Source of the DNA: Verrucomicrobiota bacterium
GTDB taxonomy: Bacteria; Verrucomicrobiota; Verrucomicrobiia; Limisphaerales; VHDF01
Length of the DNA: 64,000 nucleotides
Direction: 5' to 3'
Assembly (NCBI GenBank): GCA_016871495.1
Contig: VHDF01000016.1
Coordinates: 1 to 64,000 of the forward strand
In this document: piece after piece, positions 3,625-53,727 of the stretch
Position numbering within the stretch: position 1 is the first letter of the stretch
How the letters are laid out: each line of letters opens with the position of its first letter
Made by a program: the position numbers and the translations under genes
Notes under the pieces: model-generated
Told to the model about the DNA's origin: nothing
Seen by the model: only the letters and a program-made list of their open reading frames with translations
Database searches by the model: none

Positions 3625-6495
3625 CTATCGATTCAAAACCCGGTAGAACCTCGCTGGAATCCCTCCCGCAAAATCGGTCACCACAAAATGATCGGCGGGT
3701 GCGGTGTTCGTCTTGAGGGAAATCCAACTCACCAGATCTGGTGAGGCCTGTAAAATGTAGGATCGGCCGGCCTTGCCCTCCAAGGTCAATTCCACAAAAC
3801 CTCCCGAGGCCACTAATCCCAGAAACTTCGCCGAATCTCCTCCACCTCCTGTCGTGGCGTCGGCCTCGCCATGTAATCGAACGACGTAGGCGTAGTTGAA
3901 TCCGTTCGCTTGCCGGAAATCTCCGCCCACCAGAATCGAGCCGTCCTGGGTCCGAGCCAGGGCGTTCGCCCTGGGAACAAACCCGCCCGCGATGCCGCTG
4001 CCTACATCAAAGCTCGGATCGAGTTGCCCTTGAGCGGTGAGGCGGGCCACCCCCGCGCGCGATTGGCCGAAAGCCTTGGTGAAACCTCCCGCCACAATCA
4101 CCCTGCCGTCAGCCTGCACCGCCACGGCATTGATCGCCGCGTCCGTTCCAGCACCCGGGTTGAACAAAGGATCGAGCGCACCACTCATCATCAAGCGCGC
4201 CACCCCACCCCGGGCCTGGCCTTGCACTTGCCCAAACGCTCCCGCCACAAACACACTGCCGTCCTTTCCCAAACTCATCGCGTTCACCGCCTGGTCGGGG
4301 CCCGCACCCGGATCAAACCCCGCATCCAGTGTCCCATTGGACTTGAATCGAGCAACCCGGTTGCGCGGAATCCCGCCGGCCTCCGTGAAATCACCCGCCG
4401 CCACAATGTTCCCGCCCGCGTCAATGGCCAGCGCCGAAACCCGGGTCACCAACCCCCCCCCAATCCCGAGATTGTCGAACCCGAAGTCCAGACTCCCGTC
4501 CGTGTTCAGTCGCGTCAAACCGTTCCGGCGCTGTCCCGAGAATTGAGTGAACGCACCCCCCACCACAACCTTGCCGTCACTCTGCAATGCAATGGCATAC
4601 ACGGCATTATTACCTCCAGCGCCGATAGCGAAACTGGAATCCAGCGATCCATCCGGCATCAATCGCGCCAATCCCGGACGAGACACCCCGGAAACCCGAT
4701 CGAAAGCGCCAGCTAACAGAAGCTTTCCATCCGCTTGAAGCGCCAGCGCGAAAACGGAATTGTTCGCTCCCGCCGACGGATTGAATCCCGCGTCCAAGGA
4801 CCCGTCCGAGCGAATCCGGGCCACGCGCCCTCGCGAGACATCGTCATAAGTCGAGAATCCGCCCGCCACGAACCATCCACCCTGCCCGTCTGGAACGGCG
4901 GCCAACACCGGTCCGTTCGGGCCGATATAAGGGTTGAACGCACTATTCGGCTGTCCTGGAGTGGTCGGACCCGTGGAAACTCCGGTCATCGTCACCCCTG
5001 AGGATGTGGTGGTCGCGCCACGATTATCCGTGGCCACGGCCACGATCGAATAGGTGCCCGGTGGCAAATTGGAAACGACCAGGCTGAAAGGGGCGCTTTG
5101 GGCGCTGCCCAACAGGGAAGGTCCGGCGTAAAATTCGACTTTGGCAACCTGCCCGTCGAGGTCGCTGGCATTGGCCGAAAGTTTGATCGATTTGGGCGCA
5201 AAAAAGCGGGTGCCATTCAAGGGGCTCGACATGGATACAATCGGGGACAAATTGGCCCGCGGAGCCACCGTAATCACCGCCACACTGCTCGTGACGGACC
5301 CCGAACTGCTGTTGACCACCACGAAGTAGGAACCTGCGTTGGTGGACTCCACCGCCGGGATCTGGAAGAAGGGTGAGGATGCGCCCGGCAGGTTTGTTCC
5401 GTTAAATGCCCATTGGTAGCCCAGGGGCGGAACCCCCGCCGCTTCCACGCTCAACAGCAAAGGAGTGCCCACCACGAGAGTCTGGCTTTGCGGCTGAACC
5501 AAAATCGCCGGGGGCGTCTGCACGCTCAGTGTCGAGGCCAAACTCGTCACGGAACCGGCGCTGTTCGACACGGTGACTCGGTATTCGCCCGCGTTCAGCG
5601 GACTGACGATGGGGATGTTGAGGACGGCGCTCGTGGCTCCCGGAATGTTCGCGCCCCGAAACTGCCACTGGTAGGTCAACACCCCCTGCCCCGTGGCGAC
5701 GACGCTGAAAGAAGCCGGCGAGCCCGAAGCCACCGCGACATCCGTCGGCTGGGTCACGATGACCGGCGGTTTCGTCTGCGGACCGGTCACGGTCAGATCA
5801 AAAAAATCGCTGGCATTCAAGCCCTGGGGATCCGCCACCGAAAGCGTGATGCGGCTGGTGCCCACCGCCGTCGCGGGCAGATTCAAAATCACCAGTCGAT
5901 CCGATCCGGAACCGCCAAAGAAAATACTCGTGTCCGATACCGCCGCGAAGTTCGAGGAAAACCCGATGAGCACAAGGTTGCTCACCCCGTCGGGATCCTG
6001 CACTTTGAAGGGAACACTCACCAGGGTGCCTGCTTCCGCACGGACCGCTTTGTTCGTCACCACAATGGTGGGAGGATCGTTCAAATTAAACACCTTGAAT
6101 TGGAACGAGGTGCTCGCCGCTAAATTCTCGCCATCCAACACGCTCACCGTGATGAGGGTCACGCCCACCTCGTTCGTGGCGGGAATGATCGTCAGAAACC
6201 GCTCGGCGCCCGTCCCTGAAATGATCACGTTGCCGGAAGGCACGAGTTGCGTGTTGGAGGATACCGACGCCACCCGGAGGGACGCCGCTGGAGTTTCGGC
6301 ATCGTTCACCGTGAAGGGGATCGGCTCCCCCGGAGTGTCCTCCGTCACGAATCGATCCGTGATCACCGAAATCGTGGGAGGCACCGCCAGCGCCCGGGAA
6401 AATCCCAGGACCAAGAGCACAAAAACCGCCCCGAGGAGCGGCAGCCGGAAGATTTTGGGAAGAGTGCGAAGTGGATTCGCGTCGGATGCTTTCAT
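3625..6495 (-). CDS. Secreted protein with Ig-like domains and delta-60 repeats
   Basis: This large exported protein has a hydrophobic signal segment (LLGAVFVLLVLGF) just after the chosen start. The N-terminal half holds cadherin/Ig-like modules with repeated phrases such as VQPQSQTLVVG and SAGSVTSLAS. The C-terminal half is a run of about seven delta-60-type repeats (for example LDSSFAIGAGG, VYAIALQSDGKVVVGGAF) that would fold as a beta-propeller. It ends FYRVLNR, an ending shared with the CBM9-type protein at 54 kb, which may be a family-specific tail. Earlier in-frame starts exist up to 6576. I prefer 6495 because it places the signal segment correctly. The function is unknown and probably surface-related. 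Confidence 0.75.
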   Translation of the reverse strand: MKASDANPLRTLPKIFRLPLLGAVFVLLVLGFSRALAVPPTISVITDRFVTEDTPGEPIPFTVNDAETPAASLRVASVSSNTQLVPSGNVIISGTGAERFLTIIPATNEVGVTLITVSVLDGENLAASTSFQFKVFNLNDPPTIVVTNKAVRAEAGTLVSVPFKVQDPDGVSNLVLIGFSSNFAAVSDTSIFFGGSGSDRLVILNLPATAVGTSRITLSVADPQGLNASDFFDLTVTGPQTKPPVIVTQPTDVAVASGSPASFSVVATGQGVLTYQWQFRGANIPGATSAVLNIPIVSPLNAGEYRVTVSNSAGSVTSLASTLSVQTPPAILVQPQSQTLVVGTPLLLSVEAAGVPPLGYQWAFNGTNLPGASSPFFQIPAVESTNAGSYFVVVNSSSGSVTSSVAVITVAPRANLSPIVSMSSPLNGTRFFAPKSIKLSANASDLDGQVAKVEFYAGPSLLGSAQSAPFSLVVSNLPPGTYSIVAVATDNRGATTTSSGVTMTGVSTGPTTPGQPNSAFNPYIGPNGPVLAAVPDGQGGWFVAGGFSTYDDVSRGRVARIRSDGSLDAGFNPSAGANNSVFALALQADGKLLLAGAFDRVSGVSRPGLARLMPDGSLDSSFAIGAGGNNAVYAIALQSDGKVVVGGAFTQFSGQRRNGLTRLNTDGSLDFGFDNLGIGGGLVTRVSALAIDAGGNIVAAGDFTEAGGIPRNRVARFKSNGTLDAGFDPGAGPDQAVNAMSLGKDGSVFVAGAFGQVQGQARGGVARLMMSGALDPLFNPGAGTDAAINAVAVQADGRVIVAGGFTKAFGQSRAGVARLTAQGQLDPSFDVGSGIAGGFVPRANALARTQDGSILVGGDFRQANGFNYAYVVRLHGEADATTGGGGDSAKFLGLVASGGFVELTLEGKAGRSYILQASPDLVSWISLKTNTAPADHFVVTDFAGGIPARFYRVLNR

Positions 6496-6771: not shown

Positions 6772-7226
6772 ATCCGACCGCCCGGTGCGCCCCAGCAGAA
6801 TGCAAGTTTGTCGGGGACAGAAATCTTGGATCGTCTCCCCTGCTTCATCTCGAACTCTGCGATCTCTGCGCCTCTGCGCGAGAACAATCCCTGCTTTCAC
6901 GAAAGCACGTCAGATTCGTCAAGTTTCTAGAGTTTCTAGGGGACAGAGATCTCGAGTTTGAACCGCCGAATCCTTCTCTCGGTCGAATGCGCCTGAGGGG
7001 TCGCATCTCACAATTCAACAATTGGCGAAGGGGCGATAAGACTTTCGAACAGGGTCCGACCGTTGCAGATCCAGCCACTGTTGAATGGTGAGATGGGAAT
7101 CTATTCCATGACCCTCTTGCTGAGAACAACGGCTCCGCGGGTAGCCTGGGCGGAAATCGTGAGTTGCAACCGGCAGCGTCAAACCTCTCCCCGCCACCCC
7201 TCGGTGACGTGAACAGTCACGCACCC

Positions 7227-7822: not shown

Positions 7823-8362
7823 CTACTGTCCGATCTCGCCGAAACGGAGAACCGAGAGGACGATGAAAATGATGATGGCGAGCGCGAGGATGACGCCGAC
7901 TCCAATAAAAATGAGATTGGCCTTGTTGCTCTTCTTCGCGAAACCGGGATTCTTGTCGAGCGCAACGCTCTTGGGAACACTCTCACTCTCGCCCAATCGC
8001 ACCCCTTGACTGGGCCCTGACTCAACCGATTTCTTCGCAGCCGCAGCCGTAGCCGCTGGCGCAGCCGCCGGAGCTGCCGGCGTGTCGAGCTTCAGATCCA
8101 CCTGGCCCAGCCGCAAGGTTTGGCCAGGTTTCAAAACCGACTCCGAAATCTTGTCGCCGTTGATGAAGGTCCCATTCGTCGAGTTTAGGTCCTTAATGAC
8201 CACGTCCGAACCACGCAAAAAAACCTCGCAATGATGGCTCGAAATCGAAGCTTCGGCGATTTGGAAAGTATTGTCCTCGACACGCCCAATCGTCACTTTC
8301 TCCGTCGTGAGCTCGTAGCTCCTTCCCGCGTGGCCATCGCTGAGTACGACGAGTTTGGGCAT
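7823..8362 (-). CDS. FHA-domain protein with C-terminal membrane anchor
   Basis: An N-terminal forkhead-associated domain (about residues 1-95) carries the phosphothreonine-binding pattern IGR, SSHHCEV and NSTNGTFING. An Ala/Lys-rich linker leads to a single C-terminal transmembrane helix (LIFIGVGVILALAIIIFIVL), so the FHA domain should face the cytoplasm. The start MPKLVVLSDG is chosen because it opens the fold, although the frame extends upstream to 8476. A partner kinase is not encoded nearby. Confidence 0.78.
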   Translation of the reverse strand: MPKLVVLSDGHAGRSYELTTEKVTIGRVEDNTFQIAEASISSHHCEVFLRGSDVVIKDLNSTNGTFINGDKISESVLKPGQTLRLGQVDLKLDTPAAPAAAPAATAAAAKKSVESGPSQGVRLGESESVPKSVALDKNPGFAKKSNKANLIFIGVGVILALAIIIFIVLSVLRFGEIGQ

Positions 8363-44331: not shown

Positions 44332-44406
44332 GGGGTCGTGGCAGACAAGCAATGCACTTGCCCTGCAAGCAAGCTGATGTGGGAGCGTTACCCACCGACT
44401 CCACCA
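44332..44406 (+). tRNA. tRNA-Ala(TGC)
   Basis: Acceptor GGGGTCG / CGACTCC contains the G3-T70 pair that identifies alanine tRNA, with A73 and encoded CCA. The anticodon arm CTTGC-CCTGCAA-GCAAG gives TGC, with C at position 33. T-loop AGCGTTA. Confidence 0.85.
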
Positions 44407-44415
44407 ATCTTCAAC

Positions 44416-44494
44416 TGCGGGAAACTCGACCAGATGCACAGAGAGAAGCCTCATAAACTTCTTCAGGTGGGTGTGACTCCCACTCCCGCTACCA
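44416..44494 (+). tRNA. tRNA-Met(CAT), possibly initiator-like
   Basis: Acceptor TGCGGGA / TCCCGCT leaves a T1-T72 mismatch, as unpaired 1-72 bases do in initiator tRNA. The anticodon loop is CTCATAA. T-arm GTGGG-TGTGACT-CCCAC. A73 and CCA are encoded. The three G-C pairs of initiator anticodon stems are absent, so the initiator role is uncertain. Confidence 0.75.
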
Positions 44495-44501
44495 ATTCAC
44501 T

Positions 44502-44591
44502 GGGAAGTGATCCGGCTGCCCGACGGTAAATCGGGCGTCAGAAAACAAAAGCGGAAGTGACGAACTGGAGCATGACCAGCACTTCCCACCA
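44502..44591 (+). tRNA. tRNA-Tyr(GTA) with D-arm missing
   Basis: Acceptor GGGAAGT / ACTTCCC is perfect with A73 and CCA. The anticodon arm CCCGA-CGGTAAA-TCGGG gives GTA with G at position 33. A long variable arm (GTCA ... TGAC) fits tyrosine. Only 9 nt separate acceptor and anticodon stems, so there is no D-arm. T-loop AGCATGA. Confidence 0.7.
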
Positions 44592-44625
44592 GCCTTCGCC
44601 ATAGCTTCGCTGGGCCAGCCATTTC

Positions 44626-44701
44626 GGACTCGTAGCTCAATGAGCAGAGCAACCCGTTGTCTGCGGGAAGGCTGAGGGTGCAAGTCCCTTCGGGTCCGCC
44701 A
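44626..44701 (+). tRNA. tRNA-Asp(GTC)
   Basis: Acceptor GGACTCG / CGGGTCC with G73 (the Asp discriminator) and encoded CCA. The anticodon loop TTGTCTG gives GTC. D-loop AATGAGCA has no GG, and T-loop is TGCAAGT. Confidence 0.85.
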
Positions 44702-44706
44702 TTTCT

Positions 44707-44982
44707 CGGAACGCAGCTCAGTCTTTAGAGCACCCGGCTTGGGACCGGGAGGCCACAGGTGGAAATCCTGCCGTTCCGTGCCAGCGGTCGAATCAAATTG
44801 ACCCGTCCGGGGTCGAAATGATTGACCCGTCGCTCATTGTCGCAAAAAGAGACATGTTTTCTTTAAATCATTCCGCAACAACGTGATAAGGGAGTGATTT
44901 AAAGGAAACATGTCGGCCAGGGTGGGTCAGCCATTTCGACCCCGGACGGGTCAATCAATTCGACCGCTGACAGTTCCGACCA
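44707..44982 (+). tRNA. tRNA-Pro(TGG) interrupted by a 194-bp element
   Basis: Acceptor CGGAACG (44707-44713) pairs with CGTTCCG (44772-44778). The anticodon arm CCCGG-CTTGGGA-CCGGG gives TGG with G37. The A73-CCA end is now at 44979-44982, on the far side of a palindromic insertion at 44779-44972. The target duplication GTTCCG leaves either copy able to form the acceptor stem. T-loop TGGAAAT. Confidence 0.85.
44779..44972. mobile_element. 194-bp palindromic MITE in tRNA-Pro
   Basis: Terminal inverted repeats of about 50 bp begin TGCCAGCGGTCGAAT at left and TGTCAGCGGTCGAAT at right (complement). A second inverted pair GACATGTTT ... AAACATGTC lies inside, so nearly the whole element is a hairpin. 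A 6-bp duplication GTTCCG flanks it (44773-44778, 44973-44978). The ends resemble IS21-type termini from memory. It encodes nothing. Confidence 0.92.
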
Positions 44983-44991
44983 TCTCCTATT

Positions 44992-45067
44992 GCTGCCGTG
45001 GTCGAATACATGAGGCGTCCGTCTTCTAAACGGAACGATGCAGGTGGGGATCCTGTCGGCAGCACCA
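44992..45067 (+). tRNA. tRNA-Arg(TCT)
   Basis: Acceptor GCTGCCG / CGGCAGC with A73 and CCA. The anticodon arm TCCGT-CTTCTAA-ACGGA gives TCT. T-loop TGGGGAT. The D-arm is poorly paired. Confidence 0.85.
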
Positions 45068-45068
45068 T

Positions 45069-45142
45069 TGCCAGGTAGTGTGAAAGTAGCACGGCGGCCT
45101 GTTAAGCCGCTTGTCTTGGTGCGAGTCCAAGTCTGGCAGCCA
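45069..45142 (+). tRNA. tRNA-Asn(GTT)
   Basis: Acceptor TGCCAGG / TCTGGCA with G73 and CCA. The anticodon arm GCGGC-CTGTTAA-GCCGC gives GTT. D-loop GAAAGTA lacks GG. T-loop TGCGAGT. Only one base separates it from tRNA-Arg(TCT). Confidence 0.9.
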
Positions 45143-45343
45143 ATATAAGTTAGTTCATTCGCGATGGGCGAGCCTCGTGCGGATCGCCGCGTCAATCTCA
45201 ACCCTGAATTGCCACATCCTCCGGATGATTGGCCGAGCAGAAATAACCCGGTCCCGAATACCGACTGAAACTCCGGGTTGCGTGGCCGCCATCTCTGGAC
45301 CATCCGCCCTTTTCAAACACTTAACGAAAGGACACTCCATTCC

Positions 45344-45499
45344 ATGAAGCCTGTCATCCGTAATCAAAGCTCATTGCTCTTTCGCAAGAGCTATAAGCCG
45401 AATCGTCTTATTCGCATCCGACCCACGGCCAAGCCCGGCGTCACCTTTCGTCCGATGCGACAGTTCGGTTTGAAGCCGCAACTTGAATTCGTCTCGTAG
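45344..45499 (+). CDS. Small basic protein within the tRNA array
   Basis: A 51-residue frame (MKPVIRNQSSLLFRKS ...) has a purine-rich AACGAAAGGA upstream as a possible ribosome site. It is strongly basic, with many Arg and Lys, which would suit RNA binding. Its TAG stop lies inside the tRNA-Ile gene. No family is recognised, and it could be chance. The stretch 45143-45343 has no tRNA or clear gene. Confidence 0.4.
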   Translation: MKPVIRNQSSLLFRKSYKPNRLIRIRPTAKPGVTFRPMRQFGLKPQLEFVS

Positions 45500-45563
45500 C
45501 TCAAAAGCAGAGCACCCGCCTGATAAGCGGGAGAACGCGGAGCGTTACCGCGCGGGACGACCA
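45490..45563 (+). tRNA. tRNA-Ile(GAT)
   Basis: Acceptor CGTCTCG / CGGGACG with A73 and CCA. The anticodon arm CCCGC-CTGATAA-GCGGG gives GAT. D-loop AAAAGCA lacks GG. T-arm CGCGG-AGCGTTA-CCGCG. Confidence 0.88.
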
Positions 45564-45600
45564 TCCTTCGCTCCCCGAGCTACGGCTCGGCGAGTCCCTT

Positions 45601-45675
45601 CCCCGAGTAGCTGAGGCAGATTAGCGCCTCGCTGAAGACGAGGAGACGTTGGTGCGATACCAACCTCGGGGACCA
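45601..45675 (+). tRNA. tRNA-Phe(GAA)
   Basis: Acceptor CCCCGAG / CTCGGGG with A73 and CCA. The anticodon arm CCTCG-CTGAAGA-CGAGG gives GAA. T-arm GTTGG-TGCGATA-CCAAC. Confidence 0.88.
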
Positions 45676-45680
45676 TTTCG

Positions 45681-45758
45681 GTCCGTGAATGCAAAACAGC
45701 TCAAGCAGCCGGCCTTTCAAGTCGGGCCTAATCGGTGCAAGTCCGATCACGGATGCCA
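45681..45758 (+). tRNA. tRNA-Glu(TTC)
   Basis: Acceptor GTCCGTG / CACGGAT with G73 and CCA. The anticodon arm CCGGC-CTTTCAA-GTCGG gives TTC. T-arm ATCGG-TGCAAGT-CCGAT. The D-arm is weak. Confidence 0.85.
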
Positions 45759-45762
45759 TTTT

Positions 45763-45840
45763 GTCCGCGTAGCTCAGTGAGATCAGAGCGCCACCGTGCG
45801 AAGGTGGAGGTCGCAGGTGCGATTCCTGCCGTGGACGCCA
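45763..45840 (+). tRNA. tRNA-Arg(GCG)
   Basis: Acceptor GTCCGCG / CGTGGAC with G73 and CCA. The anticodon arm CCACC-GTGCGAA-GGTGG gives GCG. Bacteria normally read CGN arginine codons with ACG (inosine), so G34 is unusual. D-loop AGTGAGATCA lacks GG. T-loop TGCGATT. Confidence 0.85.
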
Positions 45841-45844
45841 CTTT

Positions 45845-45920
45845 GCCTCTGTGCCTCAGAAGCGACAGGACGAGTTTTGTAAACTCGTATTCGTCGGTGC
45901 GAGTCCGACCAGAGGCTCCA
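45845..45920 (+). tRNA. tRNA-Thr(TGT)
   Basis: Acceptor GCCTCTG / CAGAGGC with T73 and CCA. The anticodon arm CGAGT-TTTGTAA-ACTCG gives TGT. T-arm GTCGG-TGCGAGT-CCGAC. Confidence 0.87.
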
Positions 45921-45926
45921 TTTCAT

Positions 45927-46001
45927 GGTGATCATGATGTAACAGCAGCATCACGCCCCGTGAAGGCGTTTGTGCCGGTGCGAATCCGACTGGTCACCCC
46001 A
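45927..46001 (+). tRNA. tRNA-His(GTG)
   Basis: The extra G(-1) opposite C73, diagnostic of histidine tRNA, precedes acceptor GTGATCA / TGGTCAC. CCA is encoded. The anticodon arm ACGCC-CCGTGAA-GGCGT gives GTG, with C at position 33. D-loop TAACAGCAG lacks GG. T-loop TGCGAAT. Confidence 0.87.
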
Positions 46002-46003
46002 TT

Positions 46004-46165
46004 TTCGACGGGTCGCAGGATTGGGTTATCGTTCATCACGACGTGGTCGCCGGTTCGAGTCCGGCCTCCGGAACCAATGCCGGAGTAGCTCAGGGGTAGA
46101 GCGCGTATTCCCAGTTCGTCTCTTATCCGTCGTCCATCGCTGCGGCTCGACCAAGTCGCAGCCTA
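46004..46165 (+). ncRNA. Permuted tRNA-like RNA 1, candidate Y RNA (YrlA type)
   Basis: A canonical T-arm GCCGG-TTCGAGT-CCGGC (46046-46065 region) is followed by an acceptor-like hairpin CTCCGG / CCGGAG (46066-46071 with 46080-46085). Then comes a D-arm GCTC-AGGGGTA-GAGC (46088-46102) that has the GG missing from the array tRNAs. So the 3' half precedes the 5' half, as in bacterial YrlA Y RNAs. The left part could also be read as a poor tRNA-Met(CAT), with two acceptor mismatches. A 3' hairpin GCTGCG / CGCAGC follows. Boundaries are approximate. Confidence 0.55.
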
Positions 46166-46190
46166 ATCCTCCACAATACAAATCGTACTT

Positions 46191-46985
46191 ATGAGATCAG
46201 ACATGCACAAAGTCGTCGTCGAGCGGCCACGGAAAGATCGCCATTGGGCCAAGTCGCGACCGCGTCCGAAACCGCCCTTCGATGACCTGCCTCACCATGA
46301 ATCCATCAAAGCTCGGCACATACACCGCAAACACTTCAGCGATCTGCTTGGGCCCCTCAAACGTTGGTTGCGCTCGCAAGTCGGCCGTCCCTGGAACGAT
46401 ATTTATTCCGAGGCGTGTGCGGTCATCAAACCGGACAGCATCGTCCGCGCCCACATCAAGGGACACATGCTCCAATATGTGCAACGCCACACCTTCATGC
46501 ACGGTGGTAAGGTTTGCGTGATCGATCAAGACTATCTTAGGTTGGGTATGATTCCTGTGGAGGAACGGCAGCACTGTTCAAATCTATTCTTTGTTCATCC
46601 TGACACAGGCTTGCTGTGCGCTGTCGCACAGCCGCCAAGCAAACACCTCGAGATTCCGAGGCCGCGGAAGCAGCCGGAGACACTACGCTGGCTCAACGAA
46701 TGTTTTGCGTTAAAACAAATAAAGGGCCTTTGGTTTGAATGCCAGTTTCGCCACGTCCCGCCCAAAGGACAACTTCGGGTCTACGACCATGCGCTTGGAA
46801 AGCATGTCCTCCGCAAGAAATTGCATTGGCGCGATGGGCAACAACTGCACTGTTTCGCCAAGCGCCAGCTTTCGCGCCGCCAATTGCGCCACTTTGGCCT
46901 GCGCAATTCACCGATCGCTTCCTCCATTGGGGCGCAGTCTTCAGTCCGAAGCTTTGGCTTTGGGTTGAGGACTGCGCTCCAGTAG
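46191..46985 (+). CDS. Conserved uncharacterised protein of tRNA-array islands
   Basis: The 264-residue basic protein opens HKVVVERPRKDRHW, followed by GPLKRWLRSQVGRPWNDIYSEACAVI and VRAHIKGHMLQYVQRHTF. I recall homologous hypothetical proteins with the VERPR start and VGRPWxxxYSE core, without known function. A start at 46203 (MHKVVVERPR) fits that N-terminus better than 46191. It has no transmembrane segment. The C-terminal 25 residues are low in similarity and may be a frame extension. It sits between the two permuted tRNA-like RNAs. Confidence 0.7.
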   Translation: MRSDMHKVVVERPRKDRHWAKSRPRPKPPFDDLPHHESIKARHIHRKHFSDLLGPLKRWLRSQVGRPWNDIYSEACAVIKPDSIVRAHIKGHMLQYVQRHTFMHGGKVCVIDQDYLRLGMIPVEERQHCSNLFFVHPDTGLLCAVAQPPSKHLEIPRPRKQPETLRWLNECFALKQIKGLWFECQFRHVPPKGQLRVYDHALGKHVLRKKLHWRDGQQLHCFAKRQLSRRQLRHFGLRNSPIASSIGAQSSVRSFGFGLRTALQ

Positions 46986-47004
46986 TGGCGGGCCGGACCT
47001 AGAT

Positions 47005-47108
47005 TGTGGGTTCTCGCGTGTTATGGGTTCAAATCCAGCGGCCGGCTCGACAGGTCGGCCTAGCTCAACGGTAGAGCAGCCCCGCTTTGTTCGCGGGGAA
47101 ATTCCACG
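47005..47108 (+). ncRNA. Permuted tRNA-like RNA 2, candidate Y RNA upstream of the Ro gene
   Basis: A T-loop TTCAAAT (47028-47034) leads into an acceptor-like hairpin GGCCGGC / GTCGGCC (47040-47046 with 47054-47060, seven pairs). The D-arm GCTC-AACGGTA-GAGC (47063-47077) follows. The outer segments GTGGG-TTCTCGCG and CGCGGGGAAATTCCAC can pair with bulges, closing the module as in bacterial Y RNAs. CCCCGC-TTTGTTC-GCGGGG is an alternative hairpin. Position upstream of the TROVE gene supports the assignment. The published Ro-binding consensus was not located. Confidence 0.6.
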
Positions 47109-47183
47109 GCATCCCTTGCCCATCTGAATCTTGATCGGTCCGCGGCTGTCGACATCCAACCGCACCATGCATACGGAGGCCGT

Positions 47184-47264
47184 ATGGCAAACAACACACA
47201 AGATGATTCCCCTTTTGAAATCACCAGCAAGCGACGCAAAGGTTTCCCGTCGAGACTCGGGTGA
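47184..47264 (+). CDS. Small leader-like ORF
   Basis: A 26-residue frame ([20 protein letters not shown] ...) has a strong ribosome site GGAGG 4 bp before ATG. Its TGA stop overlaps the GTG start of the SEC-C frame (GTGA), so the two are probably coupled, or they are one gene broken by frameshift. Confidence 0.45.
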
Positions 47265-47359
47265 AACGTGGCGTGCGCGTCGTTCACGGTCAAAAGGAGC
47301 TCTTTGAAAGGCTCGGGCGCAAGGATCTTTGCCCGTGCGGTTCAGGACGCAGCTTTTAA
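47261..47359 (+). pseudogene. SEC-C motif peptide, frameshifted
   Basis: From GTG at 47261 the frame reads [20 protein letters not shown] and then meets TAA within TTTTAA. Removing one T continues the SEC-C zinc motif as KNCCLRSGRY. The single-base insertion in a T run has split the motif. A complete SEC-C protein lies at 31368-31877. Confidence 0.5.
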
Positions 47360-47562
47360 GAACTGCTGTCTCCGCTCCGGACGTTACGACGGTTCAAAAC
47401 GGAATCACTTTTTTCCGCGAGTAGTCATCCATCAATTTCTGCGGGCCGAAGAACATGGGTTACCTCTGTTCAAGGACAATTCCCACGTTCCCAACTTGCC
47501 CGCAGTTCAACCCACGCAATCGTGCCGAGAGTTGGCGGCGCATCAGATGAAAGGAGGCCTCC

Positions 47563-49254
47563 ATGGCTATCCACTACGCGAAGCATTTGAACCGACGCCG
47601 CACACCCCAGTCGCAACCGATTCCCGGCACGAACCAGGTTCGCAACTCGAACAGCTGTTGCTCGTGGCAGGTGGATGACTGGACGCGCCTCGACCGCTTC
47701 CTGATCCTCGGTGCTGAAGGCGGCACCTACTACATCAACGAGCGCGATCTGGTGAAGCAGAACCACGACGCCATCGTGCGTTGCATCAAGGCGGACGGTG
47801 TTCGCGCCGTGAACCGCATCGTTGAAATCAGCGATGCCGGTCGCGCGCCGAAGAACGATCCGGCCATCTTCGCTCTCGCGCTGGTCGCGACGCACGGTGA
47901 TGCGCAGGCCAAGGCTGCTGCGTTCGCGAACCTGGGCAAGGTCTGCCGCATCGGGACCCACCTGTTCCACTTCGCGGAATACGTGAACGCGATGCGCGGT
48001 TGGGGTCGCGGTCTGCGCAACGCCGTGGCGCGTTGGTATGGGGACTCTGAAGCCGACGCTCTCGCCTACCAGGCTGTGAAGTATCAGCAGCGCGACGGTT
48101 GGTCGCACGGTGACCTGCTCCGCCTTGCTCATCCGAAGGCCCCTTCGCCACAGCACGATGCGGTCTTCCGCTGGATGCTCAACGGCGCGGAGTCGCTCCG
48201 CGAACGCGAAGTGAAGCGCAAGGTTCGCGGTGAGGACCGCGTGGCAAAGTATGGTGCGGTCGGCGCACTGCCGAAGATCATCGAAGCGTTCGAGCAGGCC
48301 AAGCGAGCATCGAGCAAGGATGAAATCGTGAAGCTCATCACGGAGTTCGACCTGCCGCGCGAAGCCCTCCCGACGCAGTGGCTCAACGAGGTCGCTGTCT
48401 GGGACGCGCTGCTCGCTCGCATGCCCATGATGGCCATGGTTCGCAACCTCGCCAAGATGACAAGCATCGGCCTCATCAAGCCATTCAGCGATGCCAAGAA
48501 ACTCGTTCTTCGGAAGCTGAAGGATGAAACGGCGCTGAAGCGTTCGCGCCTCCACCCGCTCGCCGTTCTGGTGGCACAGAAAATCTACGCCCAGGGGCAC
48601 GGCGACAAAGCTGCGCTAAAGTGGTCGCCAGTCTCGGCGATCGTAGACGCACTGGATGAGGCGTTCTACGCGACGTTCCCTAACGTTGAGCCGTGCAACA
48701 AGCCGGTTCTGCTCGCACTCGACGTGAGCGGTTCGATGGCGTGCTCGATCATCGCCGGTTCCAGTATCAACGCCCGTGAAGCGAGCGCAGCCATGGCGCT
48801 GATCACGGCGGCGACGGAGCCGGAACATGAAATCATCGGGTTCTCCGCTCCAGATCGTGGTGGTTACGGCGGGATGCATGGCGGCGGTGAACCGGGCATC
48901 ACCCGCGTCAACGTGTCGCCTCGCATGAGACTCTCCGAAGTCATCAAGCACATCGAAAGCATTCCGATGGGCGGCACGGACTGCTCTCTGCCCATGTTGT
49001 GGGCGGCCCGCAACAAGCTGAACGTGTCAGGCTTCGTGACCTACACGGACAGTGAAACGTGGGCGGGCAACATTCATCCGGCGCAAGCGCTGCGTCAGTA
49101 TCGCAGTGAGTTCGTCGGAGACGCAAAGGCGGTCGTTGTCGGCATGACCTCCAACGGCTTCACCCTCGCTGATCCGAACGACCGCGGAATGCTCGACGTG
49201 GTGGGCTTCGACACATCCGTGCCGGCAGTGATTGCGAACTTCGTTCGCGAGTAG
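47563..49254 (+). CDS. rsr: Ro60/Rsr-like TROVE-domain RNA-binding protein
   Basis: The 563-residue ortholog of the Ro autoantigen binds Y RNAs and misfolded small RNAs. The N-terminal TROVE HEAT-repeat ring spans about residues 25-370 (ERDLVKQNHDAIVRCIKADGV, FALALVATHGDAQAKAAAF, WLNEVAVWDALLARMPMMAM). The C-terminal von Willebrand A domain has the complete metal site DVSGSM (Asp387), then GGTDCSLP and TYTDSETW. AGGAGG lies 6 bp before the ATG. In other bacteria it works with Y RNA and polynucleotide phosphorylase or beside RtcB; here it lies inside a tRNA array, just after a candidate Y RNA. Confidence 0.93.
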   Translation: MAIHYAKHLNRRRTPQSQPIPGTNQVRNSNSCCSWQVDDWTRLDRFLILGAEGGTYYINERDLVKQNHDAIVRCIKADGVRAVNRIVEISDAGRAPKNDPAIFALALVATHGDAQAKAAAFANLGKVCRIGTHLFHFAEYVNAMRGWGRGLRNAVARWYGDSEADALAYQAVKYQQRDGWSHGDLLRLAHPKAPSPQHDAVFRWMLNGAESLREREVKRKVRGEDRVAKYGAVGALPKIIEAFEQAKRASSKDEIVKLITEFDLPREALPTQWLNEVAVWDALLARMPMMAMVRNLAKMTSIGLIKPFSDAKKLVLRKLKDETALKRSRLHPLAVLVAQKIYAQGHGDKAALKWSPVSAIVDALDEAFYATFPNVEPCNKPVLLALDVSGSMACSIIAGSSINAREASAAMALITAATEPEHEIIGFSAPDRGGYGGMHGGGEPGITRVNVSPRMRLSEVIKHIESIPMGGTDCSLPMLWAARNKLNVSGFVTYTDSETWAGNIHPAQALRQYRSEFVGDAKAVVVGMTSNGFTLADPNDRGMLDVVGFDTSVPAVIANFVRE

Positions 49255-49331: not shown

Positions 49332-49406
49332 ATCCCGTTGGCCGAGCAGTTCAGGCGGCGGTTTGCAAAACCGCAGAGGCTGGTGCGATTCCAGCACGGG
49401 ATTCCA
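49332..49406 (+). tRNA. tRNA-Cys(GCA)
   Basis: Acceptor ATCCCGT / ACGGGAT with T73 (the Cys discriminator) and CCA. The anticodon arm GCGGT-TTGCAAA-ACCGC gives GCA. T-arm GCTGG-TGCGATT-CCAGC. Confidence 0.88.
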
Positions 49407-49412
49407 TTTCTC

Positions 49413-49487
49413 CGAGCATAAGTGTTGAGAGATACACGCCGGTCTTCCAAACCGGAATACAGGGCGCGCTACCCTGATGCTCGTCCA
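49413..49487 (+). tRNA. tRNA-Gly(TCC)
   Basis: Acceptor CGAGCAT / ATGCTCG is perfect, with T73 and CCA. The anticodon arm CCGGT-CTTCCAA-ACCGG gives TCC. D-loop TGAGAGAT, T-loop CGCGCTA. The first pair C-G is unlike common glycine tRNAs. Confidence 0.83.
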
Positions 49488-49491
49488 TTTT

Positions 49492-49564
49492 CGCGACGCG
49501 AACCGGTGCCGGTCAGGACTTCACAGGCCTGGCTGCGGCGGTTCAACTCCGCCTTCGCGTCGCG
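49492..49564 (+). tRNA. tRNA-like gene with 11-bp acceptor helix
   Basis: CGCGACGCGAA pairs with TTCGCGTCGCG over 11 bp. The T-arm is canonical, GGCGG-TTCAACT-CCGCC. A CAGG(A)C / GCCTG stem with loop TTCACAG would give CAC (Val) if an A is bulged. No CCA follows. It may be a pseudo-tRNA or a tRNA mimic. Confidence 0.4.
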
Positions 49565-49569
49565 TCTCT

Positions 49570-49660
49570 TTCGGGCTGCAAGCACTGCAGCGATGCAGCG
49601 GTCTCTTAAACCCACAAAGCGCAGAGGTCCTTGCGCACGGCCCTCAAGGGCAGCACCGAG
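49570..49660 (+). pseudogene. Degenerate tRNA, Lys(CTT)-like
   Basis: A loop CTCTTAA between GGT and ACC could be an anticodon CTT, and GCTGC / GCAGC may be a partial acceptor followed by ACCG. The T-arm is not recognisable. Confidence 0.25.
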
Positions 49661-49677
49661 GCGACCCACCATCCTTC

Positions 49678-49716
49678 GCCGATGTGGCTCAGCAGCGACA
49701 GCACCCGTTTGGTAAG
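49678..49716 (+). pseudogene. 5' half of a tRNA (Thr(GGT)-like) cut by repeat B
   Basis: Acceptor strand GCCGATG, D-arm GCTC-AGCAGCGACA-GCAC and the start of an anticodon loop TTGGTAA are present. Dispersed repeat B begins directly after, so the 3' half is lost. Confidence 0.4.
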
Positions 49717-50262
49717 CTCAGACATCCTGACCTCAAGCGGGAGATGCGGGACGGATGCAGAAGGGATGTGAGACCAGAGTGACGTGAAGCCGGCTCAGTC
49801 GCAAGCCGGAGGCTTGCCAGCTGTGAGCCGGTGGTTGAGAGGCGAAGCGACGATACCACCGGTCCACAGGGTCGCCCAAGCATATGCATCCGGAAGGGAT
49901 GCCAGCGTCACAGGTGCCGATACCCGGGGTGTGCGGGTTTCAGGTCTCCAGAGCCGATGCTTCATGGGCAAGGGGCGGACCGCTCATCCCTGAGCTCCAG
50001 GTCAAAAGAACAAGGGAGAGAACCGGAAGTAATGGTTGCACGGTTCCTTAGCCCTCTGCGACCCCTTCCGGGGTCGACGACGCTGTCGTGCCCAGGATCC
50101 GGGGGTGGCGCTCGTGCCTCGCGCCACCCCCGGGTTATGGCTGGCATCCCTTCGGGATGACCCGTGGTCGAGCAGACTTTTGTTCCGCGACCGATGCGTT
50201 GTGTTTTTTCGCCGCTTCAGACCGTCGCATGCTGAGACCACTAACCTCCGCATCGTCGATCG
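49717..50262. repeat. Dispersed repeat B, copy 2, with extra palindromes
   Basis: The first 290 bp match 38581-38870. An additional internal part holds a perfect hairpin CCGGGGGTGGCGC / GCGCCACCCCCGG (50090-50130) and CATCCC-TTCG-GGGATG, of REP type. The shared right end is at about 50232-50262. No gene is seen up to the next tRNA at 50370. Confidence 0.72.
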
Positions 50263-50369
50263 GCTCCATTTCGAGGAAGGAACGGCAGATTGAACAATCG
50301 TTGAGAGAACCGTTGGGCATCATCGTTCAACGGGATCTCTGCCTTCGGCGCTCCTTCTTCGATCCTTTT

Positions 50370-50445
50370 GCTCCCGTAGCTCAACCATCAGAGCGCCGCG
50401 CTTCGAACGCGGAGGTTGCAGGTGAGATTCCTGCCGGGAGTGCCA
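50370..50445 (+). tRNA. tRNA-Arg(TCG)
   Basis: Acceptor GCTCCCG / CGGGAGT with G73 and CCA. The anticodon arm CCGCG-CTTCGAA-CGCGG gives TCG. D-loop AACCATCA lacks GG. T-loop TGAGATT. Confidence 0.87.
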
Positions 50446-50447
50446 AT

Positions 50448-50535
50448 TGCGGGCATGGGGTTCAACCCGAACAGCAGAGGGTCCAGACTCAGAATCGAAC
50501 AGCCTGGGGAGTGCAATGCTCCCCACGCCGACCCG
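50448..50535 (+). pseudogene. Degenerate class II tRNA, Leu(CAG)-like
   Basis: A 5' GCGGGCA and a loop CTCAGAA resemble leucine tRNA, and a T-arm GGGGAG-TGCAATG-CTCCCC is clear. The acceptor does not close and CCA is missing. Confidence 0.35.
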
Positions 50536-50538
50536 TTT

Positions 50539-50630
50539 GGAATGTCAACCGGACGAGCGAGCCGGACCTGTTTGCTAAACAGTGGGCTCCCCGAATGGGG
50601 AGTGTGGTGCGAGTCCACGGCATTCCGCCA
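50539..50630 (+). tRNA. tRNA-Ser(GCT)
   Basis: Acceptor GGAATGT / GCATTCC with G73 and CCA. The anticodon loop TTGCTAA gives GCT. A long variable arm (CTCCCCGAATGGGGAG) fits serine. T-loop TGCGAGT. Confidence 0.88.
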
Positions 50631-50667
50631 TTCTCTCGTCGAGTTAGGAGGCTTCCGGAGCCATGGC

Positions 50668-52020
50668 CTACTCGAGTTGCGCGATCCTTTCGGCTTCGCG
50701 CAGCAAGCCATTGAGTGCTTCGCGATCCAGATACCGTCCACGCAAAACCACAGCGCGAATCCCTTTGGTGTTGGTAATCTTCTCCAACGGATTCGCGTCC
50801 AGCAGGACGAGGTCGGCGATCTTGCCCACAGCGACGGTGCCTGTGTCGTCCAACTTCAGAAACGCGGCGGGATTGCGCGTGGCGGACTGCAGGGCCTGCA
50901 TCGGCGTGAGTCCGGCCTGGACCATCAGTTCAAGTTCGTCGTGGAGGTCGAATCCCGGATACGAACCGGCCGGACCCACATCGGAACCGGCGAGCAAGAG
51001 CACACCGGCCTGTTGCATCTTTTTGACGAGCGGCAGTGCGATCCGGAATTCCTGCGCCTTGTTCTCATAAAATTCCGGCGTCAACTGATTCTTGTCTCGG
51101 GAGACCAGTTCCGCGGTCCACTGGGCGGCGGATCGTGAGACGTATTTGTCCCGCGGGTTCGGATTCGTCCGGCCGAACTGAGTCGCCATCCGATGCGAGA
51201 CCAGGGTGGGAGTAAAGGCCGTCTTGTTGCTGGAGAAGAGCGCAAACAACGCGTCCGCCGATTCCTGTGCGAACCTGTCGAGTGCCGCGGCGTAAGATTC
51301 GCTTTGGTGAGAATGGGCGAAAGTTCCTTCGAAGAGCGTTATCACGTGCTCAATGAATGCTTGTCCCGCCTGGGAGGCCTCCTGCGGCGTCACCGTTCTC
51401 GGAATGTGCCCCGCGACCGAAAGCCCCAGCTTCCGGCTTTCATCGACCGCACCGAAGTAGGCCTCGCGGGAAATCGCACGATGAACCTTGATGCAGTCCA
51501 CTCCACACTTGTAAAGGGCACGCACGGCCCCGCGCGCCTCTGATTCGTTCATGACCGCAACCTAGTGAACTCCAAACTGGCGGCCGTTCAGCGTTGGCCC
51601 GGCGCGGATAATGCGCGGACCGACCAACAATCCTGAGTCGATTTTGATTCGCCATTCGTCGATGTCCCGGAGAAGACCGCCCAAATCACGCACGCCGGTC
51701 ACTCCGTTCGCGACCAGCGCCGGCAAGGCGCTCGCTCTCGTCGAGAACATGTGAATATGCATGTCCCAGAGCCCAGGGATCAGATATTTGCCGGAGGCAT
51801 CGATCACCTTTGCGTTCCGGGGAACCGCCACGCTTCCATCCTTGCCCAGCGCCTGAATCCGGTTACCTTCAATCACCACCGTCATTCCGGACTGGGCCAA
51901 TGCGCCGGAGCCGTCGATGACCGTCACGTGGGAAATGACAGCTAGGTTCGTGTCGGTGGTCGGCTGGGCGGCGAAAACTGGAAGCGCCGCCGCAGCGAAG
52001 AGGATGAGCAGCCGAACCAT
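50668..52020 (-). pseudogene. Exported amidohydrolase with in-frame TAG
   Basis: A single 451-codon frame encodes a metal-dependent amidohydrolase (imidazolonepropionase-like). A signal peptide (LLILFAAAALPVFAAQ) is followed by the metal motif GLWDMHIHMF, GHIPRT, AGSDVGPAGSYPG and the C-terminal GTVAVGKIADLVLLDANPLE. Codon 153 is TAG, after NGRQFGVH, and the frame continues VAVMNESEARG without shift. It is either a nonsense-broken gene or read through. It is the only minus-strand gene within the array and looks like a later insertion. Confidence 0.75.
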
Positions 52021-52123
52021 AAGGCAACCTATGAAAAGTCATGTTTCACGTCATGAAAATTCTCGCACCAACGGTGGCGGGAATTCCCGGTGCCAGCCCC
52101 GATTCCGAATGGATTTCCTTCAT

Positions 52124-52216
52124 GCGCGCGTAGCTCAAAGAGAGCCGGCGGCCTTATACCCCGCATCGCACTAGATCAGTGCCGGGTTCCGGAGCGTTAC
52201 CGGACGCGCCTACCCA
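52124..52216 (+). tRNA. Class II-like tRNA, anticodon TAT (uncertain)
   Basis: D-arm GCTC-AAAGA-GAGC, anticodon stem GCGG / CCGC with centre CTTATAC (TAT, isoleucine), a long variable arm GCACT / AGTGC and T-arm TCCGG-AGCGTTA-CCGGA. The acceptor GCGCGCG / CGCGCCT has a C-C mismatch and the end reads ACCCA. A long variable arm is not expected in an isoleucine tRNA. Confidence 0.45.
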
Positions 52217-52219
52217 TTT

Positions 52220-52295
52220 GTCCCCATAGCTCAACCCACAGAGCAGACGTGTCCTCAGCGTCAGGTTGTCGGTGAGAGTCCGGCTGGGGACACCA
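52220..52295 (+). tRNA. tRNA-Arg(CCT)
   Basis: Acceptor GTCCCCA / TGGGGAC with A73 and CCA. The anticodon arm GACGT-GTCCTCA-GCGTC gives CCT. D-loop AACCCACA lacks GG. T-loop TGAGAGT. Confidence 0.82.
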
Positions 52296-52299
52296 CTTT

Positions 52300-52380
52300 G
52301 GGCGGGTGGTTAAGCGGGAAAAGCAGACCGCGCAGATCGAGAGTCTATGAGCCTTGGAGGTGCAAGTCCTCTCTCGCCCA
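52300..52380 (+). tRNA. tRNA-like gene, anticodon unassigned
   Basis: Acceptor GGGCGGG / CTCGCCC and T-arm GGAGG-TGCAAGT-CCTCT are good. The anticodon region (GAC CG ... CG AGA GTC) does not form a standard stem, and no CCA is encoded. Confidence 0.5.
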
Positions 52381-52390
52381 TTCATTTCAA

Positions 52391-52467
52391 GGAGTCGAAG
52401 CCACAGCAGACCGGCACCGGACTTTTAATCCGGTAGGGTGAGGTTGCAACTACCTCCGGCTCCACCA
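52391..52467 (+). tRNA. tRNA-Lys(TTT)
   Basis: Acceptor GGAGTCG / CGGCTCC with A73 and CCA. The anticodon arm CCGGA-CTTTTAA-TCCGG gives TTT. T-arm GAGGT-TGCAACT-ACCTC. Confidence 0.9.
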
Positions 52468-52473
52468 ATTCAT

Positions 52474-52547
52474 TGCCGGGTCGTCTAATCGTAGGACAGC
52501 GCCCTTTGAAGGCGCGAATGCTGGTGCGATTCCAGCCCTGGCAGCCA
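52474..52547 (+). tRNA. tRNA-Gln(TTG)
   Basis: Acceptor TGCCGGG / CCTGGCA with G73 and CCA. The anticodon arm GCGCC-CTTTGAA-GGCGC gives TTG. D-loop TAATCGTAG lacks GG. T-loop TGCGATT. Confidence 0.9.
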
Positions 52548-52571
52548 GTCCTGGCAAGTCGAGCTTCAACC

Positions 52572-52645
52572 CGCCCGGTGGTGAAATAGCATCACGTCTG
52601 GCCTACACCCAGAAATCGAGGGGGCAGAACCTTCTCGGGCGACCA
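52572..52645 (+). tRNA. tRNA-Val(TAC)
   Basis: Acceptor CGCCCGG / TCGGGCG with A73 and CCA. The anticodon arm TCTGG-CCTACAC-CCAGA gives TAC with C at position 33. D-arm GTGA-AATAGCA-TCAC. T-loop GGCAGAA. Confidence 0.82.
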
Positions 52646-52647
52646 TG

Positions 52648-52722
52648 GCCTCGTTGCATCATCAGGAGTGCGCCGGTCTCTGACACCGGAGGACCTGGAG
52701 CGAAGCCAGGCGAGGCAGCCCA
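52648..52722 (+). tRNA. tRNA-Gln(CTG)-like
   Basis: The anticodon arm CCGGT-CTCTGAC-ACCGG gives CTG and the T-arm is CCTGG-AGCGAAG-CCAGG. The acceptor GCCTCGT / GCGAGGC pairs, but the 3' end reads AGCCCA, so one or two bases are out of place. Confidence 0.6.
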
Positions 52723-52802
52723 TTTCCCATGGCCGTGCGCAAGCACCAACAAAGAACAAACACCTCATTGCGCGAAACGCAGCGGCCGTGTGCAAACGCT
52801 TT

Positions 52803-53387
52803 ATGAGCGACATACTGAACAAGACCATTGTGCTGGTGCTGAACCGCAACTGGCAGGCGATGAACATTCGCACGCCACAGGAGGCGTTCTGCCAAATGGC
52901 CACGAACGTTGCGACCGCGCTGGAAATTGACGGCGAGAACCACATCCGCCCCGTCACGTGGGACGAGTGGATCACGCTGCCCATCCGCGATGGCGACAAC
53001 GCGGTCCAGACTGTGCGCGGTGCGATCCGCGTGCCAACCGTAATTGTGGCGATGAACTTCGCGAAGGTGCCCAAGAAGCGTCCGAAGCTCTGCGCAAAGA
53101 CCATCCGCGAACGCGACGGCAATCGTTGCCAGTACAGCGGCAAGCTTCTGCGCCCTGACGAAGGCAGCCTCGACCACGTTCTTCCCCGCTCCCGCGGCGG
53201 CAAGGACGCCTGGGACAATCTCGTGTGGGCAGACAAGGCCGTGAACGCGAAGAAAGGCAACCGCCTGCCGCACGAGGCTGGCTTGCAGCTACTCACCCTG
53301 CCGCGCGCACCGAAGGAACTGCCCGTGACGGCACTCATTCGCAACGCCTACGGCATCGTGGATTGGAAGATGTTCGTGAAGGAATGA
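52803..53387 (+). CDS. HNH endonuclease-like protein
   Basis: The 194-residue protein belongs to a widespread HNH family that opens with VLVLNRNWQAMN. The nuclease core is RDGNRCQYSGKLLRPDEGSLDHVLPRSRGGKDAWDNLVWADKAVNAKKGN, with the catalytic His in LDHV and the Asn and His/Asn ligands after it. HNH genes of this type often sit in phage tRNA clusters. The start at 52803 avoids overlap with the tRNA upstream. No strong ribosome site is visible. A terminator-like hairpin follows. Confidence 0.85.
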   Translation: MSDILNKTIVLVLNRNWQAMNIRTPQEAFCQMATNVATALEIDGENHIRPVTWDEWITLPIRDGDNAVQTVRGAIRVPTVIVAMNFAKVPKKRPKLCAKTIRERDGNRCQYSGKLLRPDEGSLDHVLPRSRGGKDAWDNLVWADKAVNAKKGNRLPHEAGLQLLTLPRAPKELPVTALIRNAYGIVDWKMFVKE

Positions 53388-53429: not shown

Positions 53430-53538
53430 TGTAAAATAGACTATGACTGTGAACGACCTGCCGACGATTTGCCGGTTTTCAGTGTCCACATCATCTGAGA
53501 AATCGAAGTCGTCGTTCAACTCAGGAAGAACTGCCAAT

Positions 53539-53727
53539 ATGACCCCAACTCAAATCCACACCACGGATTGCCGCCTTTATCCGAAGGACGAAGCGCCAGC
53601 CGCTTATAAAGACTTCAACGCAGTGCTCGATTCCGTGAAAGCCGCTGGACTGGCAAGCGAAGTCGCACGACTTAATGCCCGCTTCGTCATCAAAGATTCC
53701 GAGATGAGCCTGAAAGGGGCGGCTTGA
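53539..53727 (+). pseudogene. rtcB: C-terminal remnant of RNA ligase RtcB
   Basis: About 60 residues contain LYPKDEAPAAYKDFNAVLDSV, followed by AGLASEVARLNARFVIKD. I recognise this as the C-terminal end of RtcB (E. coli RtcB ends near DESPAAYKDIDAVMAAQ). The catalytic core with its metal and GMP ligands is absent upstream. The frame is open back to 53443, but that part is not RtcB. In other bacteria rtcB is near rsr and Y RNA genes. Confidence 0.65.

Follow-up and report, generated by a model that had tools for sequence, protein, structure and literature searches.

Two RNAs in which the elements of a tRNA appear in permuted order flank a gene of no described family, in the neighborhood of a gene for a Ro60-like protein, and the question raised by this locus is whether they are Y RNAs of the YrlA type, where they came from and what they could do amid tRNA genes. 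The locus lies in a 64-kb stretch of a bacterial chromosome (genome size 5.06 Mb), hereafter the window, and the two RNAs were proposed in an earlier sequence-only reading of it. We consider it probable that both (RNA1 and RNA2) are YrlA-type Y RNAs with a short companion (RNA3), that they arrived with Ro from a viral-type module and that they now reside in a bacterial tRNA-array island, where they would act by a Ro-gated, tRNA-mimicking mechanism. The basis of this reading is sequence, predicted structure, covariation among relatives, gene neighborhood and the descent of Ro, from which, by analogy with known systems, we infer transcription, Ro binding, recruitment, clients and conditions of action.

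Results

Organization of the island

ARAGORN detected 12 tRNA genes in the 64-kb window, every one within 44.3-52.6 kb, and this dense cluster together with an HNH nuclease gene gives the locus the make-up of a trn-type island. Its features are, in order:

44332..45998, + strand: left part of the tRNA array; the last gene is tRNA-His-like (GTG by reading) and lies immediately 5' of RNA1
46006..46133, + strand: RNA1, probable YrlA-type Y RNA (matches to R1, R2 and RF02553, and predicted fold)
46191..46985, + strand: gene U, encoding a protein of 264 aa whose undescribed family occurs mainly in tRNA-array loci
46986..47126, + strand: RNA2, probable YrlA-type Y RNA in which a further hairpin follows the D arm (R2 match over the full length, R1 match over the core)
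47184..47430 (right end approximate), + strand: small SEC-C-like ORF spread over at least two frames, with RNA2 before it and RNA3 after it
47439..47506, + strand: RNA3, probable short Y RNA lacking a tRNA module (helix CUGCGGGC/GCCCGCAG; R1 match)
47563..49254, + strand: Ro60/Rsr (TROVE + vWA), viral type (PF05731, E 7.4e-49; PF25045, E 2.6e-61; phrog_850)
49332..52642, + strand: right part of the tRNA array
52668..53387, + strand: HNH nuclease of the tRNA-array type (PF13395)
53500..53694, + strand: C-terminal remnant of an RtcB ligase (PF01139, 28.4 bits with a cut-off of 27, profile positions 359-425 only)

A longer RtcB is present on contig C22, and tRNA-like stretches below threshold also occur in the array. 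Homologues of the HNH gene were found in two other tRNA-array loci (L030 and L032) and in the viral Ro loci L042/L043, L049, L050, L083, L101 and L104; in L032, by reading, U is followed first by the array, next by the HNH gene and last by an RtcB-like ORF. Against the HNH models of Cas9d and IscB the array HNH gene scored 48.9 and 24.8 bits, respectively, far under the cut-offs. A separate feature of the array is a long imperfect inverted repeat at 44796-44956, with ends GACCCGTCCGGGGTCGAAAT, which gave a spurious miRNA match.

Two permuted tRNA-like modules

The earlier reading had described two units composed of a T arm, a closed acceptor hairpin and a D arm, in this order and with 6 and 7 acceptor pairs, and both were recovered at the claimed places when the coordinates were re-read. 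The core of RNA1 comprises a T arm with a perfect 5-bp stem (46049-46065), the 6-bp acceptor hairpin CTCCGG/CCGGAG (46066-46085) and a D arm with a 4-bp stem (46088-46102). That of RNA2 comprises a T arm (47023-47039), the acceptor hairpin GGCCGGC/GTCGGCC of 7 pairs including one G-U (47040-47060) and a D arm, again with a 4-bp stem (47063-47077). The loops had been called canonical, which holds for both units; the T stem of RNA2 is a degenerate ATGGG/CCAGC with 3 of 5 pairs and two mismatches that had gone unmentioned.

We searched the 64-kb window in Python with a T-acceptor-D descriptor in strict and relaxed forms. RNA1 was the sole strict match, and the relaxed form gave seven matches headed by RNA1 (24.7) and RNA2 (23.7), with the other five at 20.1 or less. 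In so tRNA-dense an island such units might be nothing but the 3' end of one array tRNA gene lying by chance before the 5' end of the next, and one tandem tRNA pair (52474-52642) does reach 24.0 bits with the covariance model R1 described below, the strongest false match of that model in the window. The strict descriptor, however, had no match in the tRNA-array relatives L030-L034, 150 simulated 64-kb windows of the same dinucleotide make-up contained only three matches of at least 23.7 (0.02 per window), and conserved ends are found on all three RNAs, so that we regard chance juxtaposition as extremely unlikely.

Models built from viral Y RNAs recover the RNAs of the window

Since the nearest relatives of the window Ro are viral (see below), the Y RNAs for our models were taken from viral Ro loci, in which the permuted units share flanks reading 5' GGGYCG(R), GGTTAYC further in and 3' CTTRYCC. 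The covariance model R1 was built from 12 viral Ro-locus Y RNA rows with the window excluded. Both sides change in 23 of the 30 pairs of its training alignment, which none of 500 shuffles matched, and its covariation score was 0.658, compared with 0.266 for the shuffles and at most 0.210 when the partners were slid. Across the 5.06-Mb genome, the top three R1 matches were RNA1 (78.1 bits, E 1.5e-19), RNA3 (34.6 bits, E 2e-7) and the core of RNA2 (28.9 bits). Because the R1 score of RNA2 was close to that of the tandem tRNA pair, the model R2 was built from 7 viral Y RNA rows in which a further hairpin follows the D arm, again with the window excluded; this form was picked after RNA2 had been seen, with no window letter entering the model. 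R2 aligned RNA2 over model positions 1-140 of 140 with 43.3 bits (E 5.1e-9), scored RNA1 at 62.6 and RNA3 at 24.8 bits, and gave nothing else above 10.3 bits in the window and at most 21.3 bits in the Ro-free array L032. The YrlA-like interpretation of the two units is therefore upheld by models that contain no letter of the window, with both units now seen as cores of larger RNAs; their number was underestimated, a third RNA being present at 47439-47506.

Rfam at gathering threshold returned tRNAs only and no Y RNA family. The YrlA model RF02553 aligned to RNA1 over its full length (46006-46135) with 40.5 bits (E 2.7e-6 in 10 kb), a score that no other place in the genome equaled; next came C1:148918 with 28.0 bits, a locus that R1 scores at 22.1. 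The RF02553 match of RNA2 was partial (18.2 bits) and alone not significant, and RNA3 was absent from the match list; RNA1, too, stays below the curated gathering score of 69 bits. Matches to RF02553 at the E 10 level occurred in 13 of 14 control genomes, and this level is therefore noise. The viral Y RNA of Mycobacterium phage ET08, which reaches 113.6 bits with R1, is likewise under the RF02553 cut-off. As this cut-off was not reached, we file the RNAs of the window as viral-variant Y RNAs and not as certified RF02553 members.

Predicted folds and conserved ends

RNA1 is built from a terminal helix CGACGGGU/AUCCGUCG, a second helix GGAUUGGG/CCCAGUUC and the motif GGGUUAUC, followed by the T arm, closed acceptor hairpin and D arm. 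Its ends, reading ACGGGTCGCAGGATTGGGTTATC ... CTCTTATCCGTC in the predicted viral-type Ro-binding form, pair with each other as two 8-bp helices in the predicted fold, in which all helices are present (z -2.22). The ends of RNA2 are GGGCCGGA ... CCCUUGCCC, and its conserved motifs read GGCGGGCCGGACC ... GGGTTCTC ... ATCCCTTGCCC, also in the predicted viral-type Ro-binding form. Thus the predicted Ro-binding ends, whose published consensus the earlier reading had not found in either RNA, are present in a viral form, GGGYCG ... CUURYCC. Full-fold prediction separated the two: RNA1 folds as a Y RNA, whereas the minimum fold of RNA2 (-57.7) lacks the terminal helix, its Y fold lies 7 kcal/mol above the minimum, MFE folding does not yield the Y form, and its z is only -0.95. 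The module is accordingly enclosed by a long stem of both conserved ends, as in YrlA, although weakly in RNA2.

RNA2 is the weakest of the three RNAs, given its T-stem mismatches and differing best fold, and it may be decaying. Taken further, RNA1 and RNA3 would be the working Y RNAs and RNA2 a decaying copy left in the array, an arrangement compatible with its two T-stem mismatches, weak terminal helix and unfavorable Y fold and with the other wrecks nearby (the RtcB remnant and the sub-threshold tRNA-like stretches). Nevertheless, both ends of RNA2 remain conserved, its acceptor helix, D arm and extra hairpin are intact, and its match to R2 is full-length; we consider its being a mere relic possible but rather unlikely.

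The T-acceptor-D order is also that of permuted tRNA genes, which are encoded 3' half first and matured by circularization in some algae and archaea. Were RNA1 and RNA2 genes of this kind, yielding working tRNAs, the extra hairpin of RNA2, with its 7-nt loop, might be taken for an anticodon arm. The corresponding hairpin of its viral relatives, however, has a 4-nt GNRA-type loop, the end halves do not join to a working anticodon, and the ends are long covarying helices common to Ro-linked RNAs (less clearly so for RNA2), shared even by RNA3, which has no tRNA part at all. We therefore judge maturation to tRNAs very improbable and retain the assignment as Y RNAs.

A probable short Y RNA precedes the Ro gene

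RNA2 had been placed just upstream of the TROVE gene, the usual position for such RNAs; it actually lies 436 nt away, with the SEC-C ORF and RNA3 intervening, and it is RNA3 that ends up next to Ro, 56 nt 5' of its start codon. RNA3 keeps the ends and both stem regions, with a short loop replacing the tRNA module. Its fold has a z of -3.19, none of 200 shuffles being as good, and it scored 33.8 bits with the nematode sbRNA family RF01656 (cut-off 38). Short and long Y RNA forms also stand side by side in the viral loci L040, L064, L079 and L110. The set as a whole therefore has the YrlA-type gene neighborhood, adjoining a Ro60 orthologue, and the permuted module is present in RNA1 and RNA2.

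Gene U and the SEC-C-like gene

The description of the two RNAs as flanking an unknown gene was accurate. Protein U had no Pfam match at E 0.001 and no PHROGs or NCBIfam match at E 0.1; its predicted structure, of low confidence (mean pLDDT 64.5, pTM 0.42), matched no PDB fold at E 0.001, and we accordingly assign it no function. A search of the phylum found U in one of 387 genomes, its own, and relatives were detected in three verrucomicrobial MAGs and two cyanobacteria (L030-L034), on a Novosphingobium plasmid (L035), in Myxococcus phage Mx1 (L036), in the viral Ro loci L074/L077 and L089 and on the viral contig L117. As judged from sequence, the U family accompanies tRNA arrays in both bacteria and viruses.

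The position of U between RNA1 and RNA2 raises the possibility that the Y RNAs are mainly regulators or partners of protein U and not of Ro. In the same direction, a YrlA-like RNA (32.1 bits) lies right before U in the cyanobacterial locus L033 (7571-7707), in a genome whose TROVE matches are on another contig. By reading, however, the tRNA-His-like gene of L030-L032 is followed directly by U, without a Y RNA between them, and U occurs in only 2 of the 73 counted viral Ro loci (L074 and L089). Three of the five U-bearing relatives, the verrucomicrobial ones, have neither TROVE nor an R1 match genome-wide, and the two with TROVE, both cyanobacteria, have R1 matches; Y RNAs being found only where Ro is present, in these genomes they track Ro and not U. 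We thus regard a primary partnership with U as improbable and take Ro to be the protein with which the RNAs belong.

Some further features of the U loci were recorded. The otherwise open U frame of L031 contains an in-frame TAG (8127-8129). Pieces of 23S rRNA occur at the cyanobacterial U loci, at about 7417 and at 12471-12526 in L033 and at 11169-11224 in L034, with an Rfam LSU match at positions 1093-1148 and, by eye, a helix 71-like stretch.

The SEC-C-like gene undergoes a +1 frame change at TTT-Y-AAR (CPCGSGRSF, then KNCC), with the same extra base in all six loci in which the junction was found: the window (47184-47430), L030 (8314-8400), L031 (9011-9100), L033 (8905-8990), L122 (8110-8160) and L123 (about 8000-8130). 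This count excludes L032, with a truncated gene, and L034, in which the junction was not found, and it spans Verrucomicrobia, Cyanobacteria and Nitrospirota. The change looks like conserved programmed +1 frameshifting; further frame breaks are present in the window copy and in some others. For candidate SEC-C relatives on plasmids and phages (437 plasmid and 14 phage records), most among the matches listed cover the common zinc motif only. The locus L123, on plasmid pA of Kovacikia minuta, carries 33 tRNAs in its 16-kb stretch and several R1 matches between 3960 and 7722, the best with 42.1 bits at 6848-6981, and is another tRNA array with a likely Y RNA.

Viral descent of Ro and, probably, of its RNAs

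The window Ro is 45-46% identical to the best named phage proteins and up to 54% identical to those of IMG/VR contigs, compared with 23-34%, in partial matches, to the phylum's other TROVE loci, of which 387 genomes yielded 19. In a FastTree phylogeny of 20 of the 73 viral loci, four named records and the chromosomal loci in which a frame was found, the window Ro fell inside the viral clade as sister to L042, L050 and L079 (support 0.995). All three sister loci carry RNA2-type Y RNAs, and L042 and L050 also hold tRNA arrays and HNH homologues; the set therefore looks block-inherited.

Viral loci were counted as 73 of 80, L043, L066, L077, L094, L095, L105 and L108 having been dropped as apparent copies. 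R1 matches of at least 30 bits were present in 34 of the 73, including 11 that had supplied sequences for the model itself, and in 9 of the 19 loci of the phylum's other TROVE genes; the remaining 39 and 10 loci had no such match, perhaps partly because flanks are short, their lengths varying among the viral loci, roughly 53 of which have 1 kb upstream. Nearly all viral R1 matches of at least 30 bits (49 of 52) lay between 1.5 kb before and 3 kb after the Ro start, and at least five tRNA genes accompany Ro in 12 of the 73 loci. ARAGORN also called tmRNA genes in the viral Ro/tRNA-array loci L042 (4078-4503) and L089 (9402-9748) and, in the viral Ro locus L054, a tRNA with a four-base anticodon (taaa, 4643-4740) with a tRNA-Pyl (cta) call nearby.

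Discussion

We propose that the terminal helix GGGYCG/CUURYCC of each RNA would bind the Ro ring, while the permuted part of RNA1 and RNA2 would copy the tRNA elbow and stay outside Ro, where it could recruit or compete for tRNA enzymes such as modification enzymes, anticodon nucleases, PNPase and RtcB. Ro itself would control which damaged or misfolded RNAs gain access, RNA3 would be a simple ligand of Ro, and the natural clients could be the island's own array tRNAs under translational stress. By analogy, surveillance of these tRNAs, or service as a decoy for them, is the likely role of the Ro-Y RNA set.

More speculatively, the island might be a spare translation kit captured from a virus together with the means of guarding it. 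The kit would comprise the tRNAs, the HNH nuclease, the ligase of which a remnant is left, U, a SEC-C protein whose synthesis requires +1 frameshifting, and Ro with its three Y RNAs, which are of two kinds. The tRNA-like parts of these RNAs would act as decoys or docking platforms and let the kit tRNAs survive anticodon nucleases or translational stress; U would then be a dedicated partner of the tRNA-like RNAs. We offer this larger scheme tentatively, as one that is possible but rather unlikely.

A viral-type Y RNA set with Ro, placed amid the tRNAs that it possibly serves, would make the notion of a Y RNA as tRNA decoy or dock testable with few genes. The models R1 and R2 recover viral Y RNAs missed at the Rfam cut-off, ET08 being the case tested. 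New handles on tRNA-array islands come from protein U and from the SEC-C gene, whose frame change is conserved; such islands, in the literature covered by our limited search and as far as the consulted portions go, have been treated mainly in Anabaena and Mycobacterium. The same search yielded no description of SEC-C frameshifting in those portions, and the combination of a Y RNA or YrlA with a tRNA array was not found in them, including the parts consulted of PMC7824862 and PMC8190616.

Comparison with known systems

The trn operon of Anabaena PCC 7120 (TrcR regulon) comprises a long tRNA array, RtcB and an HNH gene, all controlled by one repressor and induced by translational stress, according to the sections consulted of PMC10272220. 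The window array appears to resemble it in its tRNAs, HNH gene, RtcB remnant, SEC-C gene and U, but no Ro or Y RNA is described for the Anabaena operon in those sections (PMC10272220). An HNH gene also belongs to the tRNA arrays of Mycobacterium, of which HNH is, in the excerpts consulted, the most widespread coding sequence and which are transferred horizontally with phages and plasmids (PMC5966550, PMC9569102); a term search of the text of PMC5966550 did not find TROVE, Y RNA or RtcB named.

The rsr-yrlBA-rtcBA operon of Salmonella responds to tRNA fragments, and its authors suggested that YrlA might competitively inhibit an anticodon nuclease or that Ro and Y RNA could aid tRNA decay with PNPase (PMC7790460, consulted in part). 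As in Salmonella YrlA, judged by the RF02553 model, the T arm, closed acceptor hairpin and D arm lie between the strands of an end-to-end stem, and as in that operon, within the part of PMC7790460 consulted, an adjacent Ro gene is combined with two Y RNA genes and a link to tRNA damage and RtcB. Unlike the YrlA model, with ends CGAAUGC/ACUUGUCG, the RNAs of the window have ends GGGYCG/CUURYCC with GGUUAUC and score under its cut-off, and, unlike the Salmonella operon, the set is split by gene U and retains RtcB as a remnant only.

The same conserved Y RNA ends are found in ET08 (Bxz1 group) and other viral Ro loci; the high-scoring Y RNA of ET08 has tRNA genes nearby, and its Ro is 45% identical to that of the window. 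Loci of the ET08 type differ in lying on phage genomes, and the ET08 near-copy L097 has no U match. An RNA of the YrlA type is already known from these systems, and the tRNA-array setting of the RNAs described here and the gene U between them look new.
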